Assembly (NCBI GenBank): GCA_001969505.1
Contig: LSSK01001331.1
Location: 1-25,661 of the forward strand
DNA: 25,661 nt
Direction: 5' to 3'
Source of the DNA: Zancudomyces culisetae
Lineage: Eukaryota > Kickxellomycota > Harpellomycetes > Harpellales > Legeriomycetaceae
Each line of letters opens with the position of its first letter. The first letter of the stretch is position 1. The translations under genes and the position numbers were made by a program. This document shows, one piece after another, positions 2,903-23,449 of this stretch. The notes under the pieces are model-generated. The model was not told the origin of the DNA, made no database searches, and was given only the letters and a program-made list of their open reading frames with translations.

Positions 2903-4198
2903 ATGTCAGACCATGAATCTGGAAAAGAAGGAGAATTTTATTACGAAAACGAAGGCGAACTCAATAATGAAATGCATAGTAACAATGAAAATGAAAATGA
3001 AATAGTAGATCGAAATGAAGGGGGAGCAGAAGAGAAAGGTGGAGAAAACGAAGAAGGCGAAGAATCTGAAGATGAACAAACTAAAGCCATCAAAAGCATG
3101 CCAAAGTTTAAACTCAAAAGAAAGCTAGAGCGAAGGAAAAGCCGAGAGAGCGAAGGAGGGGAATCTCAACACGAAGAATTGGCTCAAGAGCGGGAGCACG
3201 AACGAGAACAAGAACAAGAACAAGAACAGAGAGAAAAAGAATATAAGGAAGGGGAAGAGGAGGAGGGAGATAATGCATATCCACAGGAACATGAAGATGA
3301 GCGTAGATCGAAAAAGCGTCGTAAGAGAAGAAGAGATGAGGAAGATGAAGAGGGAGAAAGAGGGGAACCCCAGGAAATAACTGATCCCAAACAACTAGAA
3401 ATAATAGCAATAAATAAAGAAATTGACATGGCCTTGAAAAGCGGAAAGACATCCCGGCGGCGAAAGCGAGATGAGTTGGATGCGGGAGTAGATGAGGAGA
3501 TAGTTAAGTTGCAGGAGAAGATGCGACGGGCGGCAATGGAGGATTTCGAAGCCAATAAGGAGGGCGCTGCAGCAATGCACAAGGTGGGAATGTTAGTAGA
3601 GGTGAGTAGAGAGCTGGGAAAGTCGCATTTGCATGAGGTAATGTTAGAAAACAACATTTTGGACACAATTCGATTGTGGTTGGAACCGCTTGATGATGGA
3701 GCGCTTCCGGGTCTTGATCTTCAACAAGAGATGTTGGGCGTAATAAGTAGGATGCCTGTACGAACAGAGCACCTGCGCGATAGTGGGATTGGAAAAATAA
3801 TTTTATTTATGAGCAAATGCGACAGATACCCCGATAGGATTAAGCGGCAGGCGATGGGGCTTGTTCAGAAATGGGCACGACCACTGCTAAAACGAAGCAG
3901 CAGCTTTAGGGATAAGGTTGCAACTATGAATGCTGATGGAGGTGGTGTCAGAAGAAGAAGTAGTGCTGAGGACCGGCAGGAAGGATTTTTGGGAAGTATA
4001 CAGGTGCAGACAGGTAATTCGGAGAGCGGACAGACTCGGCGAGCGATTATTCCAAGCAAAAACATTAAAAATTATACTGTAATGCCAAAGGGATCCATTT
4101 CTCTCCGTGAGCAACCAGAAGGAAAAGCAAACAACGCCATGCCAGATATATATAAGCGTCTAAAGGCATCATTCCAAAAGAAAAAAAGACCAAACTAA
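2903..4198 (+). CDS. IWS1: Transcription elongation factor IWS1/Spn1
   Basis: A nuclear factor that binds Spt6 and RNA polymerase II and couples elongation to chromatin handling. The product is 431 residues in a single exon. Residues 1-165 are a highly charged, low-complexity arm, with Glu/Asn tracts, an EQ repeat near 102-109 and a basic cluster at 135-144. Such acidic disordered N-termini are typical of IWS1. The folded core lies at about 165-340 and contains the family hallmarks: a helix with ILDTIRLWLEPLDDGALPG (251-270), LRDSGIGKII (291-300), and a final RIKRQAMGLVQKWARPLLKRS block (312-332). This is the TFIIS N-terminal (LW) domain fold. The tail is basic and ends KKKRPN. The ATG at 2903 is preceded by an A at -3. 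The stop lies 11 bp from the stop of the convergent Myb gene, so the two 3' ends must overlap in transcription. Confidence 0.9.
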   Translation: MSDHESGKEGEFYYENEGELNNEMHSNNENENEIVDRNEGGAEEKGGENEEGEESEDEQTKAIKSMPKFKLKRKLERRKSRESEGGESQHEELAQEREHEREQEQEQEQREKEYKEGEEEEGDNAYPQEHEDERRSKKRRKRRRDEEDEEGERGEPQEITDPKQLEIIAINKEIDMALKSGKTSRRRKRDELDAGVDEEIVKLQEKMRRAAMEDFEANKEGAAAMHKVGMLVEVSRELGKSHLHEVMLENNILDTIRLWLEPLDDGALPGLDLQQEMLGVISRMPVRTEHLRDSGIGKIILFMSKCDRYPDRIKRQAMGLVQKWARPLLKRSSSFRDKVATMNADGGGVRRRSSAEDRQEGFLGSIQVQTGNSESGQTRRAIIPSKNIKNYTVMPKGSISLREQPEGKANNAMPDIYKRLKASFQKKKRPN

Positions 4199-4209
4199 GT
4201 GAAAGATTG

Positions 4210-5703
4210 CTAATGAGAAATGAAAAGTTTTTTGAGGGCTTCTTCACTCGGACGCACAAAGTATTTATGGCATAAACATAGTTCTCTTGTTTTTTCAAAT
4301 AAAATGTAATCAGGGTCAGAAGTATCGATTTGATCTAATGAGGTGATATTTTTTTGTAGTTTCAAGTTTATACCATAGGATTTAAGCAGTAAATAAATGT
4401 TTATTGTACTCTGAGATCGGGAGCGAACATGGACTTCGGAGCGAGTATACGATAAAGCCTGGCTTATTTTGACCCAGCTTATTTTGTCGTGGCCCATGAC
4501 GTGCGACAAAATCAAATAGTCTTCCTTCGCGGTAAATTTACCGCTTGTGTTAAGAAAGGGTGATAGATAGTTGATATACCTATATCTACACTGGGACGAT
4601 GTGCGATCGCCCATTTTTTCGCTGATTTTTTTCCAGGAAAAGATTTCTTCCTTTTCTAGTGACTCTGTAACAAGGTTTTTTAGTTTTTCCGAGTCCTCAG
4701 CCGACCATTTACTAGTGGGTTTGTGCTTTTTGCGTATCTTTACTACCTTGCCTTTAATTGCCCTTTGCAAAGTCTTGTATCGCGAATAAACAGCAATGGT
4801 GGAACATGGTGTTCCACTCATCAAACTTGCCACCTTTGTCCACTTTTCGCCATGCTTTTCGACCAGTTGGAGTAGTTCTTTGTCGCTTTCAGGCGTCCAA
4901 TTGCGAAATCGTCTAAATTCACCTTCTTTTTCTCTTGACATTGCTGCATTTTCTAATTCTGCATTTTCACCTTCATCCGCTCCTTCCTCTGCGATGCTCA
5001 GATTAATCATATCAAACAAGTGCTTAATACTGGATCCATCTTCATAGCGGATATTTTCAATCATTTTCTGGCTCTCCTTATCGAGCGCATAAAGTTTTTT
5101 TAGCTGGTATAGATAATTGTATCTTGATCGGCACTGATGTCGATTCCTACCCGGGATCCCATTTGAAACGGCCCCCCAATTTTTTTTATTCACCGCCTCA
5201 GAAAGTTCAAGAAGCCTCAGATCCTCTTGTTTGCTCCATTGTCCGTTTTTAGCTGCTTTTTCAAAATCTTCGGTGTACAGTTTGAAAATTATAGACTGGG
5301 GTGTTCTACCCAACTTTTTTGCTATTTCACCTATAGATAATCGAGCTTTGACAAGTTGCACCATTTCGTCTTTCTCCTCCTGTGTCCAACGCTTGTAGAA
5401 ATTACCGGGCTTAGTACCAGCAACTTTTGTATCTTGGGGGTTTTGGGATTTTTTTGAAGAATTCTCAGAATGTGTTTCTAGATCTTTTTTCGCACCTTTA
5501 AATTATATAGTTAGAGTAAAAGTAAAGATAAATGTAAATGAATGTCCCGTAGTTTTGTAAAGGTTTGTTATATTTCATTTTTTTGATTTACAGTTGGAGA
5601 ATGTGAATTTACCTTTTACAGCCTGCTTTTTTGAACTAAATGTGGCTATTGCCGTGGTGTGTCTTATTGCTGGAAAAATTCTTTTGCCCGTAATTCTCAG
5701 CAT
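4210..5703 (-). CDS. Five-repeat Myb/SANT protein with a mitochondrial-type N-terminus
   Basis: Rebuilt from two exons on the minus strand: 5703-5613 (30 codons plus 1 nt) and 5495-4210. The 117-nt intron starts GTAAATT and has a CTCTAAC branch match (plus-strand 5510-5516). The product is 458 residues. The phase closes exactly and the join makes VKGAKKD. Starting instead at the first internal Met (codon at 5364) would cut off the first Myb helix, whose WTQEEKDE lies upstream in the same frame. Residues 1-31 carry seven Lys/Arg, no Asp/Glu and many hydroxylated and hydrophobic residues, beginning MLRITGKRIFPAIRH. This is a textbook mitochondrial presequence pattern. Five Myb/SANT units follow, with lead aromatic residues near W67, W117, W230, W294 and F351; each has the acidic EED/ESD first helix and the CRSRY/SRY/CRYRY third helix. 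The repeats imply DNA binding. Residues 184-228 are an acidic linker. The orthologue is not recognised, and targeting is an inference. Confidence 0.8.
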
Positions 5704-5722: not shown

Positions 5723-5756
5723 CTATCTTTTATACAAATCTATCTTTTATACAAAT
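5723..5756 (-). promoter_or_regulatory. Tandem duplicated TATA element of the Myb gene
   Basis: A 17-base unit (plus strand CTATCTTTTATACAAAT) is repeated twice without a gap. Read on the minus strand, each copy contains TATAAAAG, at 5734-5727 and 5751-5744. These lie about 24 and 41 bases upstream of the Myb protein's ATG at 5703. The arrangement implies a very short leader. Confidence 0.5.
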
Positions 5757-6318: not shown

Positions 6319-8379
6319 CTAACTATCACTGGATAGAGTAGGGTGGGATTTCAAAACATCTTCCCAGCTGGATTTGCCATTGACAATATCAATGACAATA
6401 TTAATAATAGTATCAACATTTGCTCTGATCTGTTGGCATGAATCACGTTCTCTAAGAGTGACAAGGTTTTCGGAAACAGTGAGCTGATCAATAGTGATGG
6501 CAAATGGAATTCCCAATTCGTCGTTTCTGGCATATCTTCGTCCAATGGAGGCAGAAGAAGCATCGTCAATGCGAGCGGCTACACCAGCACTGCGTAGAGT
6601 CTTTGTGATATGGTTTAGAGAAGCAGAGAATGCAGGACCAGTTAGAAGAGGAAGTACAAGACATTTGATAGGAGAGATTTGGGGGTTGAAAGCAAAGACA
6701 GTGCGGGAGGCATCATCAGGACGAGTGTAGTAAGAGTGTTCGAGAAGAGAGTAGAGGATACGACCAATACCAAAGGAAGGCTCAATGACGTTTGGAGTAT
6801 ATTCACGAACAGATTTTTTGAAGTTTTGCATTTCAATGGTCAACAAGTCAGATGTAATCTCAACAGGTTCGGGGAGACCAAGGGAGGCAGAGCACTTTCC
6901 GGCAGAGTCGAGTTCCTTTTTGATTTCGGCAAGCTGCTCCTGAGGAAGAGCTTCCAGAGCTTCTTGAATCTTTTTGGCGTTTTGTTTGAACTTGGGGCCA
7001 AATAGACGTTTGTTGAACACACATACCAATGCATCATAGACAATAGGAATCTCAAGCTCTTCTTGGGCACAGAGATTGACACCAGTACGTCTGGAATGGG
7101 CAGTCAAGTCATAGGCCGAGCGGTCAGCACATCCAACACATTCAACCCATCCATAGCTGCTCTTGATTTCGGCATCCCAGCAGTCAGTGGCATAATGTGC
7201 CATTTCGTTGGACATATGCTGGCGGAATCTAAGTCTAGTTTCGTCAATTCCTATCTTGGCGAGGAACAAGTAAATTCTTCCCAAAAAGTATCCAAGTGTT
7301 TGGTTGTTGACTATCTTCTTTTCAACTGCTTCTCCAATCGACATTGATACAGTGGTTGAGCTGCCTGATTCCTGTACCTCTGCTGGCAAGAAGTTTAGGT
7401 GGATTTCCTTAACTTCTTCATACTTTGGATGATCTTTTTTCAATGGATCTACGTAGTGTTCGATTTCAGCCATTGTAAATTCTCTTACTCTCAATAGCCC
7501 TGCTCGTGGAGAGATTTCATTTCGGAAGGACTTTCCAACCATAGCTGATGCAAAAGGCATTTTTTTGTTGTTGAATTCGTACAAACGTTGGAAGTTCACA
7601 AATTGTGCTTGTGCTGTTTCTGGTCGCAAGTACCCCTTCAAATTTCCAGTAGGACCAATACTTGAATCAAACATCAAGTTGAATGCAACTGGCTCAGTAA
7701 CTTCGTTGTTGGTTGCTGGGTTTCGGATTTCGTACTCCTTGATTATTTCACCAAGCTGATCTCCGTTGAAGTTGTCGATTTGTGCCAATATCTCTTCATA
7801 TTTCTTCTCTACTTCTTCGCTCAGAACCACCGCTCCCTTTGGTACCTTACCTTTACCTCCTTTCTTTGCCTTCTCTGCTCCTGCTCCCTCTCCTGATGCT
7901 GCTTGCTTTGCGAGTTTGCTCTCCTCAATTCTCATTTCCAGAATTCCCTCTACAAGATGGTCAGCTCTAAACACTTCGTTTGTTTTGACATCTCGGCACA
8001 TATAATCAGTAAACTTTTCAACGTGTCCTGATGTTTTGAGCACCTCTGATGGTGTTATGATTGCTCCGTCCATCTCCAGCATATCTTCCTCGATCACAAA
8101 GTGCTTTCGCCAGATATTGATAAGGTTTTGTTGCAACACCGACCCAATTGGTCCGTAATCGTACAATCCTGCAACTCCACCATATATCGAAAATGATGGC
8201 ACGTAGAAGAATCTTTTGGTGAGTGTTGATTCGAACACTGCTCTATCGAATTCCTTGGTCATTTTTTTTGCCTTGGGTTGTTTTTTTAGTTTTGATGCAC
8301 TGGAATACAAATTTATGAATTTAGTGCTTTTAGTTCCTAGTACTCTCTTTAATCCAATATGTTTAAATGTATTAAACAT
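6319..8379 (-). CDS. GRS1: Glycyl-tRNA synthetase, probably dual cytosolic/mitochondrial
   Basis: A class II aminoacyl-tRNA synthetase that charges tRNA-Gly. The product is 686 residues in a single exon, the usual length for the eukaryotic alpha2 enzyme without a WHEP domain. Visible landmarks are GGVAGLYDYGPIG (67-79), LRPETAQAQFVNF (251-263), the motif 2 region GKSFRNEISPRAGLLRVREF (282-301), the WVECVGCADRS insertion (411-421), motif 3 EPSFGIGRILYSLLEHSY (533-550), and an anticodon-binding domain at about 566-663. A low-complexity Ala/Gly/Lys insert lies at 155-182. Residues 1-39 are basic with no acidic residues before the next Met, like a mitochondrial presequence. M40 begins TKEFDRAVFEST, the usual start of the cytosolic enzyme. 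The first ATG has T at -3 and is preceded directly by an ATG-TAG minimal uORF (8385-8380). The M40 ATG (8262-8260) sits in an A-rich, strong context. Leaky scanning would therefore give both forms. The function is certain; the dual-start model is inferred. Confidence 0.95.
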   Translation of the reverse strand: MFNTFKHIGLKRVLGTKSTKFINLYSSASKLKKQPKAKKMTKEFDRAVFESTLTKRFFYVPSFSIYGGVAGLYDYGPIGSVLQQNLINIWRKHFVIEEDMLEMDGAIITPSEVLKTSGHVEKFTDYMCRDVKTNEVFRADHLVEGILEMRIEESKLAKQAASGEGAGAEKAKKGGKGKVPKGAVVLSEEVEKKYEEILAQIDNFNGDQLGEIIKEYEIRNPATNNEVTEPVAFNLMFDSSIGPTGNLKGYLRPETAQAQFVNFQRLYEFNNKKMPFASAMVGKSFRNEISPRAGLLRVREFTMAEIEHYVDPLKKDHPKYEEVKEIHLNFLPAEVQESGSSTTVSMSIGEAVEKKIVNNQTLGYFLGRIYLFLAKIGIDETRLRFRQHMSNEMAHYATDCWDAEIKSSYGWVECVGCADRSAYDLTAHSRRTGVNLCAQEELEIPIVYDALVCVFNKRLFGPKFKQNAKKIQEALEALPQEQLAEIKKELDSAGKCSASLGLPEPVEITSDLLTIEMQNFKKSVREYTPNVIEPSFGIGRILYSLLEHSYYTRPDDASRTVFAFNPQISPIKCLVLPLLTGPAFSASLNHITKTLRSAGVAARIDDASSASIGRRYARNDELGIPFAITIDQLTVSENLVTLRERDSCQQIRANVDTIINIVIDIVNGKSSWEDVLKSHPTLSSDS

Positions 8380-10173: not shown

Positions 10174-10190
10174 ATGGCGGACGATTCTAA
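10161..10190 (+). promoter_or_regulatory. Overlapping upstream ORF of the carrier gene
   Basis: An ATG 13 nt upstream of the carrier start opens a nine-codon frame ending TAA at 10188-10190. It overlaps the main ATG (10174) in another frame. If the mRNA leader includes it, ribosomes must leak past it to make the carrier, so it could lower or regulate translation. Transcript start data would decide. Confidence 0.4.
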
Positions 10191-11651
10191 AGTAGGTTCA
10201 GACGAAATGTCTAAGGACAATCAGAGCTTCGAATTTGAAAAGGGGTTTAAGAAAGTAGTTTATGGTAATTTTTCTGTTATTATGCTTTTGTTATACTCAA
10301 TTATTTTTTCTACTAGCAGGCTTGATAGGGAAATGTTGAAATAAGGAGAATAGAGGGATAGGCTTATTGCTGATATCAATCTTGATAGCTAATTACAAGA
10401 TAAACAAAAAATAGCAAACAGAATATTCCTTGCCGGCTCCTCTGCAGCAGTATGTGGGGTCGTAGCCGGGTACCCGTTCGACTCGCTAAAGACGAGAATG
10501 CAAACATATAATTATAAATCTATCTTTAAATGTGCAAAAGTGACAATCGCAGAGGAAGGTTTCTTTGGGCTTTACCGAGGTCAGTGATTAACAATGAGAT
10601 TATATTACTTTTCTTTTTGCCATTTTTGTATACTTCTTGTTTAAATGTTGATTTAACCAAGAAAGATGGATATTCTTTTACGGTAAATAGGAATACTACC
10701 GCCTCTATTGACGATTTCTCTAACTAAATCAACATCATTCTCAATATACGAATACTCGAAAAATAAAGTTAATAAATTAATGTATCCCGAAAGTAAAACC
10801 GAGACGGGAATGGTGAATGATAGCAAACAAAAGAGTCTAAAATCAATATTCTTTAATTCAGTCATATCTGGTGGTATATCTGGTTCATTCGTTGCCGTGT
10901 TTGCAGCCCCATTAGAGCTGATAAAAATCCAAATGCAACTGGCCAGCTTAATTCATAAAGAACAGTTGTCAAAAATAGAGAAGCTCAAGGCCGAGGTAGC
11001 GAAAAAGGGTCTATTGGATCCCAAAGTATACCAAGCCAGGCTGGCAGCTTTAAATAATCTACAAGCTGTGAACTCTAGAGTTGAAAAGATGTATTTTTCC
11101 AAAAATGGGAAAATGTCTAATTTTGCTTCTATTAAAAAAATTGTACAAACAAGGGGGGTTTTTGGGCTATACACTGGTTTAGGAATCCATGTTGGTAAGT
11201 AGTAAAAATTGACATCATTATTATCTCGAATACTATCCTAACTTATATACCTGTTTTTTTTCAAATAGTTCGCGATTTTTTTGGCACTGGAATCTATTTT
11301 AGTACCTATGAGCTATTCAAGGAAACGCTTAAGCGGACCCGATTAGGCAGCAATAACGCAGATCCATTAATACATATGATAGCTGGAGGATTTTGTGGTG
11401 TGGTTGCCTGGCTAATCATCTTTCCCATTGATTTGGTCAAGTCTATAGTTCAAAAGGATTCATTAGCCTATCCGCATAAATACATGTCACCTATCAAGTG
11501 CTTCAAGTATAACCTTGATCGTTATGGTTTTCGGGGAGTGTACCGAGGGATTAGTGTAACTTTGATAAGGGCATTTCCGCTACACGCGCTAAATCTCACT
11601 GTTTATGAATATGTTCGAGAAATTCTGACAGACTATGCAAAGCCCTTATAA
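10174..11651 (+). CDS. Mitochondrial carrier family (SLC25) transporter, four exons
   Basis: An inner-membrane metabolite exchanger. Exons are 10174-10264, 10400-10579, 10691-11194 and 11269-11651. The introns start GTAATT, GTCAGT and GTAAGT, all phases close, and intron 3 has TCCTAAC at 11236-11242. The product is 385 residues. All three carrier signatures are present: PFDSLKTRMQ (56-65), PLELIKIQMQ (164-173) and PIDLVKSIVQ (311-320). Each is followed by a G-x-x-G-LYRG-type helix end, GFFGLYRG (84-91), GVFGLYTG and GFRGVYRG. The N-terminal 35 residues are polar. A charged insertion of about 60 residues (roughly 177-235), rich in Lys, Glu and Leu, sits in the second matrix loop and makes the protein longer than the usual 300. 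The GILPPLLTISLTKSTSFSIYE and VRDFFGTGIYFSTYE segments resemble the carnitine/acylcarnitine-ornithine branch. The substrate cannot be read from sequence alone. Confidence 0.9.
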
Positions 11652-22453: not shown

Positions 22454-22886
22454 TTAAAAGTATGGTGCAATCCAAGAGTAGGATGTTGCAGCTTTATTAC
22501 CAATTTGGTAATATATACCATTAATATCACTTCCTGCGCTTCTAGGTACGACGAAGCATTTGCCTGTACAATTAGCCTCGCTGCAAAACATCATGGCGCC
22601 TTTGTTGTTATTCACACAGCTCATTCTTACAGCTGCAAAGTTTGCTGCCGAATAGCACTTGTTTGGTTTTGCATAGGCAATAGTCGATGCGCCAAAACAG
22701 CCTACAGCATTAAACAACTCAAACTTCAATTTTCTGACTTTTCTGCGCCTGGGTCTGTCTTCGTCGTCCATCTCATTAAAGTTGGACTCCAGGATATCAT
22801 TTTCTCTTGATTCCTGTACATCTTGATTCTGGGCATTTTGTGGATTGTACTCGTTTTGTGCAAAGACTGAGCTAAGTGCCAATGCA
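22454..22886 (-). CDS. Small secreted cysteine-containing protein, first exon unresolved
   Basis: The last exon encodes about 143 residues. It opens with ALALSSVFAQN, the hydrophobic end and AxA-type cleavage site of a signal peptide. An in-frame stop lies just upstream with no ATG between. A TACCCTCAG splice acceptor (plus-strand 22887-22895) immediately precedes the exon, so the signal-peptide start lies in an upstream exon. The exon opens one nucleotide before a codon boundary, so the missing exon must end in phase 2. The mature part has an Asn/Gln/Glu-rich stretch, a basic RPRRRKVRK cluster (a possible processing site), then a domain with six cysteines in a C-x(n)-C...CSEANCTGKC pattern, ending SYSWIAPYF. 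The even Cys number suggests disulfides outside the cell. The family is not recognised; a cell-wall, effector-like or crystallin-like fold are all possible. It stands alone in a gene-poor region. Confidence 0.7.
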
Positions 22887-23449
22887 CTGAGGGTATATTA
22901 TTGATAAGATACTCATCAGATATTTTATTTTTGTAGTGTTAAAAGAAGTGAAAAGTAAAGGTTTGATTCATTATTGATTATATTTTTCAAACGGAGATCC
23001 TACATTTTATAACATTTATACATTCTGATGTTATTTAATGCTGAATGCCAGGTATTCTTGTCTATTACTTACTCCTTGTTGACAGATAAGTATTACTGAC
23101 TATACTTTTAATTCGTTACTACATAAGTTATGTAGAAAGTTAAATAAGCATTCTAGTAATAAAAATAAACGTAGTTACTTTTTTATAAAATATCTATAAA
23201 TGAACACTAAATAGCACTAGCAAATTGAATTTCATTGTAACTACAAAATCTAAAGCTGACTCCATGGATAATACGGATGGCTATGTTCCTACAAGCTATT
23301 TGTGTATATGTATTTTTTGTTCTACTTTTCACTATTATAATAAACTTTGTTAATTTTTGCAACACATTATCTATAGTATTACCATGTCTATTTCATCATA
23401 AACTTTGCATGTTTACATCAACATTGAACAGCCATCTATTTAAGTGAAA
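22887..23449. other. Upstream region of the secreted-protein gene
   Basis: It must contain the missing first exon and promoter of the minus-strand secreted-protein gene. The best signal-peptide-like start is an ATG at 23235-23233 (minus) reading MKFNLLVLFS, but no GT donor within it has the required phase, so I do not join it. The remainder is AT-rich without a recognisable feature. Confidence 0.4.

Follow-up and report, generated by a model that had tools for sequence, protein, structure and literature searches.

The window (the whole 25,661-nucleotide stretch of Zancudomyces culisetae DNA analyzed here) carries on its minus strand a spliced gene, read from a single frame, whose 458-aa product joins a short, basic N-terminus to an array of Myb repeats. 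The first-pass annotation had proposed this gene, with its 117-nt intron and 30-codon first exon, and recomputing the splice and the translation returned the same frame. The elements of the gene model are as follows:

5728..5751, minus strand: a pair of TATAAAA boxes whose first bases lie 48 and 31 nt ahead of the ATG
5613..5703, minus strand: exon 1, 91 nt (30 codons plus 1 nt), residues 1-30, presequence-like
5496..5612, minus strand: intron, 117 nt, GTAAAT...AAAG, GC 0.239
5510..5514, minus strand: CTAAC, resembling a branch site, with its A 15 nt ahead of the final intron base
4210..5495, minus strand: exon 2, the rest of codon 31 and residues 32-458, stop at 4210

Upstream of the Myb gene lies a glycyl-tRNA synthetase (GlyRS) gene (6319-8379, minus strand). 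Among the best 120 of its 7829 matches, the highest outside the window are from five Smittium species (64-67% identity), with Coemansia and further Kickxellomycotina next in rank. Its predicted product has an N-terminal extension ahead of MTKEFDRAV, where the database version begins, and it is likely that this one gene serves both cytosol and mitochondria via two starts. On the other side, a 431-aa ORF (2903-4198, plus strand) converges on the Myb gene, with the two stop codons 11 bases apart; its N-terminal part is very acidic and its C-terminal part, judged by eye, is presumably Iws1/Spn1-like. Also identified by eye was an intron-split, mitochondrial-carrier-like gene (10174-11648, plus strand) with a comparable intron, GTAAGT...CTAAC...ATAG. 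A small open frame (22457-22897, minus strand) combines a hydrophobic stretch that resembles a signal peptide, close to its start, with a Cys-containing domain that we take to be reminiscent of crystallin-like secreted folds.

Support for the two-exon gene model

The exon junction is in phase, and the donor, branch site, and acceptor described in the first-pass annotation are all present. The intron borders read AAAG/GTAAAT at the donor and TTAAAG at the acceptor, a scan of the intron for CTRAY has CTAAC as its single match, and the acceptor is the sole AG of the intron. GC content steps at both splice sites (0.396 in exon 1, 0.239 in the intron, and 0.395 in exon 2). With a TATA box 31 nt ahead of the ATG, transcription would be expected to start just upstream of exon 1. 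An alternative GTAAAT donor 21 nt downstream would give a 96-nt intron with the same acceptor, and it leaves residues 1-30 identical.

It is very improbable, in our judgment, that the protein starts elsewhere and that exon 1 has been wrongly taken for its first exon. Such an error would fit the weak codon log-odds of exon 1 (2.3 bits; of 2549 stop-free windows in presumed noncoding stretches, 20% equal or exceed this), as well as the many further frame-preserving splice pairs that appear when GT/GC..AG sites are loosely listed, and the sole database version of the protein, which has 284 aa and begins at residue 175. Against it stand the splice-site features, the GC step, and the TATA box described above, and also the repeats themselves. 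Within exon 2, in-frame initiation is first possible at the ATG of residue 75 (the start of a 384-aa ORF). Because this follows W67, the first Trp of repeat 1, repeat 1 is not wholly obtainable from an exon-2 ATG and depends on coding sequence that precedes residue 75. Repeats 1 and 2 would both be missing from the 284-aa version.

Myb repeats and their closest relatives

The repeats and the basic cluster between two of them lie within exon 2 (the limits of repeat 1 were set by us):

5275..5400, minus strand: repeat 1, residues 63-104, weak Myb/helix-turn-helix, 19.9 bits
5107..5250, minus strand: repeat 2, residues 113-160, Myb, 41.8 bits
4768..4902, minus strand: repeat 3, residues 229-273, Myb, 37.2 bits
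4717..4740, minus strand: KIRKKHKP (residues 283-290), a basic cluster flanked by repeats 3 and 4; candidate nuclear localization signal (NLS) or DNA-contact linker
4558..4713, minus strand: repeat 4, residues 292-343, Myb, 44.9 bits
4405..4551, minus strand: repeat 5, residues 346-394, Myb, 25.6 bits

Each repeat segment was scored individually against the Pfam Myb family (PF00249; cut-off 24.4 bits). Repeats 2-5 exceed the cut-off, the last of them only just, so four units of the five-unit array originally claimed hold; repeat 1 alone falls under it, and we therefore describe the array as four clear repeats plus one weak one. The whole protein scored 133.2 bits over four stretches, and we classed it as a Myb-repeat protein on the basis of at least two repeats above the cut-off. 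It should be noted that repeat 5 is absent from the genome-wide list of Myb profile matches, and that repeat 1 also touches helix-turn-helix families, in every case under their cut-offs. The C-terminal 60 residues have no Pfam match, and exon 2 matched nothing over cut-off in NCBIfam. Structure prediction for exon 2 from the single sequence (AlphaFold) gave a poor model (mean pLDDT 46.7), for which the leading Foldseek matches, none at E <= 0.001 and thus suggestive only, were SNAPC4, c-Myb, and Reb1.

When 5.8 billion proteins were searched, the sole match was the window protein itself in its 284-aa form, both for the whole protein (7221 candidates, E up to 0.01) and for residues 226-392 (224 candidates, E up to 10). 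The search requires shared 5-residue words, and we estimate that relatives near or below about 40% identity may escape it. Because the database includes Smittium and Coemansia proteins, the gene is either fast-evolving or lineage-restricted, or its relatives were missed by the word filter. Within the genome (23.1 Mb in 859 contigs, profile-searched), a second copy of the gene region occurs on contig C673 (L009), where comparison over 6,001 bp shows a single mismatch. This is probably assembly redundancy or a second haplotype and, being near-identical, is uninformative on conservation. Several other Myb and HMG matches across the genome likewise occur in equal-scoring pairs or triplets.

Among solved structures, the best sequence match is SNAPC4, the snRNA-activating protein complex subunit 4 (PDB 7xur; residues 65-157, E 2.8e-12), which was also first by Foldseek on the low-confidence model (E 2.9e-3). 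The two have several tandem Myb repeats in common, whereas the window protein is 458 aa long and has a presequence-like start. Orthology with SNAPC4 was rejected, as a gene on contig C794 matches it far better (E 6.4e-48 vs. 2.8e-12). The match to c-Myb (R2R3 type, PDB 1h88; E 6.9e-12) reflects shared Myb repeats, although their number and spacing differ, and c-Myb is the top match, among solved structures, of a separate gene on contig C93 (E 1.8e-27). Reb1 (PDB 5eyb), which we group with the Reb1/TTF1 terminators, matches residues 228-364 (E 2.5e-7, 33.4 bits). A 196-aa frame on contig C297 matches Reb1 slightly better (40.0 bits) yet ties between c-Myb (E 2.8e-9) and Reb1 (E 2.9e-9), and the window protein may itself have a Reb1-like identity. 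These three (C794, C93, and C297) are the only other Myb genes that were compared with solved structures. Given that the first is SNAPC4, the second has c-Myb first, and the third ties, the window gene encodes, on these sequence comparisons, a further Myb protein that has no clear namesake.

The N-terminus as a candidate import signal

Residues 1-30 include seven K/R, one H, and no D/E, in agreement with the seven basic and no acidic residues first reported for exon 1. The best amphipathic moment over 14 residues is 0.63, at residue 6 (Pro11 lies within the stretch), and FSS occurs at residues 22-24. The most direct comparison is with starts from the same genome. That of GlyRS has six K/R, no acidic residue, and a YSS motif, and that of a mitochondrial-type HMG protein (described below) has six K/R, no acidic residue, and LSS at 44; the citrate synthase start has six K/R, one acidic residue, and no such motif. 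Thus, among these four starts (the scope of this motif comparison), a hydrophobic residue followed by SS is common to the Myb, GlyRS, and HMG proteins and missing from citrate synthase. By eye, the start of the genome's own Rpo41 is very basic. For the mitochondrial SSB gene, the sole solution of a splice scan is a short first exon (MFRTVSAKTLK) followed by a 160-nt intron with an AAAG/GTAAAC donor, a layout that would resemble that of the Myb gene; the CTRAY scan that was applied to the Myb intron found no site in this SSB splice model.

How unusual such a start is depends on the control. At least seven K/R with no D/E was found in 26 of 1256 ATG-started open stretches of 30 codons (about 2%), taken in any frame and with overlapping stretches counted. 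The same pattern was found in none of 29 ORFs (minimum length 200 aa, without overlaps) from 136,671 bases, a sample in which some ORFs probably lack true gene starts, one is the Myb gene's own exon-2 ORF, and one part (L028-L038) was chosen for its Myb genes. By the settings of this control, the moment is 0.58 for the query and 0.52 for GlyRS, and 4 of the 29 long ORFs reach 0.62-0.74 (one is the query's exon-2 ORF, and none is a known mitochondrial protein). The charge pattern is therefore unusual but not decisive, as 26 of the arbitrary open stretches match it, and the moment does not stand out. The mitochondrial targeting proposed in the first-pass annotation is partly supported: the likeness to presequence-like starts of the same genome and the presence of separate genes that match SNAPC4 and c-Myb best speak for it, and the NLS-like cluster, the weak codon score of exon 1, Pro11 within the best stretch, and the four ORFs with moments at least as high speak against it.

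Compartment and possible role of the Myb protein

On balance, we consider import into the mitochondrial matrix, where the Myb protein would act on mtDNA, to be the best reading of these features. Less probable, but a serious competitor, is that this is an ordinary nuclear Myb-repeat DNA-binding protein, with a basic N-terminus that is coincidental or aids DNA binding or nuclear import and with KIRKKHKP as its NLS. Myb arrays, and the family as a whole, are normally nuclear, and the closest solved relatives (SNAPC4, c-Myb, and Reb1) are nuclear proteins. The cluster has a K-K/R-x-K/R match at 286 (KKHK, 286-289), and 8-residue windows with at least five K/R are confined to residues 280-290. The control stretches that are as basic and acid-free as exon 1 are also consistent with coincidence. 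However, a basic cluster between two Myb repeats could equally be a DNA-binding linker, and the N-terminus resembles the presequence-like starts of the same genome in charge, and two of the three in its hydrophobic-SS motif. Between these two readings, we judge the presequence one to be the better.

The occurrence of a presequence-like N-terminus and an NLS-like cluster in the same protein could also indicate dual location, that is, a form imported after translation from the ATG at 5703 together with a nuclear form that arises by incomplete import or from a later start. The adjoining GlyRS gene, with its N-terminal extension, offers a parallel, as such extensions occur in dual targeting by alternative starts. 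We consider this unlikely for the Myb gene, in which a start at the next in-frame ATG (residue 75) would drop the first Trp of repeat 1.

If the protein is imported as we favor, a nuclear gene would supply mitochondria with a sequence-specific DNA-binding protein. Roughly the first 15-25 residues, encoded by exon 1, would form a cleavable presequence, the protein would enter the matrix via TOM/TIM23 and be trimmed by the processing peptidase, and repeats 2-5, perhaps aided by repeat 1, would bind AT-rich mtDNA.

The contig with cox1 is 62,475 bp long, has a GC content of 18%, and carries a direct terminal overlap of 3,819 bp at 99.97% identity, which closes it to a unit of 58,656 bp. Because of this overlap, the mtDNA maps as a circle, although linear concatemers are possible. 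For comparison, a published account of Z. culisetae gives a mitogenome of 58,654 bp, described as a linear assembly with two contigs overlapping by 61,188 bp, and assemblies with 35.3-35.7% GC, and states that transcriptomic data were produced (PMC12611240). The mtDNA-end binding raised in the first-pass annotation is not supported here, as the assembly is without ends. We likewise set aside a telomere-binding protein of linear mtDNA, which would call for defined ends where there is a 58,656-bp circular map.

The fungal proteins known to bind mtDNA belong mainly to the HMG-box, SSB, polymerase, and recombination classes. The genome has matches to the phage-type RNA polymerase and SSB families, and contig C814 (L057:604-1455, minus strand) encodes a two-HMG-box protein with a presequence-like start (MSAILARVARAIRP...RFLSS), a candidate Abf2/TFAM-like mitochondrial packaging protein. 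The Myb protein resembles the Abf2/TFAM type in its presequence-like start and in its proposed compartment (matrix) and substrate (mtDNA), but it has Myb repeats rather than HMG boxes, and the genome has its own candidate of that type on C814. Replacement of the HMG packager by the Myb protein is thus unlikely. Since phage-type RNA polymerase, SSB, and the two-HMG-box protein are retained, the Myb protein, if imported, would be an addition to the normal mtDNA toolkit, most plausibly as a factor acting at specific sites.

Beside the HMG packaging protein, such a factor might act in transcription, in termination, or as a replication barrier. Our preferred functional model is the site-bound block of polymerase or replication forks for which Reb1 is the precedent, the difference being location under the mitochondrial reading. 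More specifically, we tentatively suggest a site-specific terminator, replication barrier, or regulator on mtDNA that was recruited in insect-gut fungi, although we regard this as considerably less certain than matrix import itself. Among the papers listed by a literature search, judged by titles and the beginnings of abstracts and with most subscription journals outside its scope, none deals with a mitochondrial Myb protein.

Should the protein prove to be nuclear, it would be an ordinary Myb protein without known relatives. If it is instead imported, a nuclear-type DNA reader would have been shifted into the organelle, making this an unusual mitochondrial DNA-binding protein, and it would offer a handle on mtDNA regulation in early-diverging fungi.
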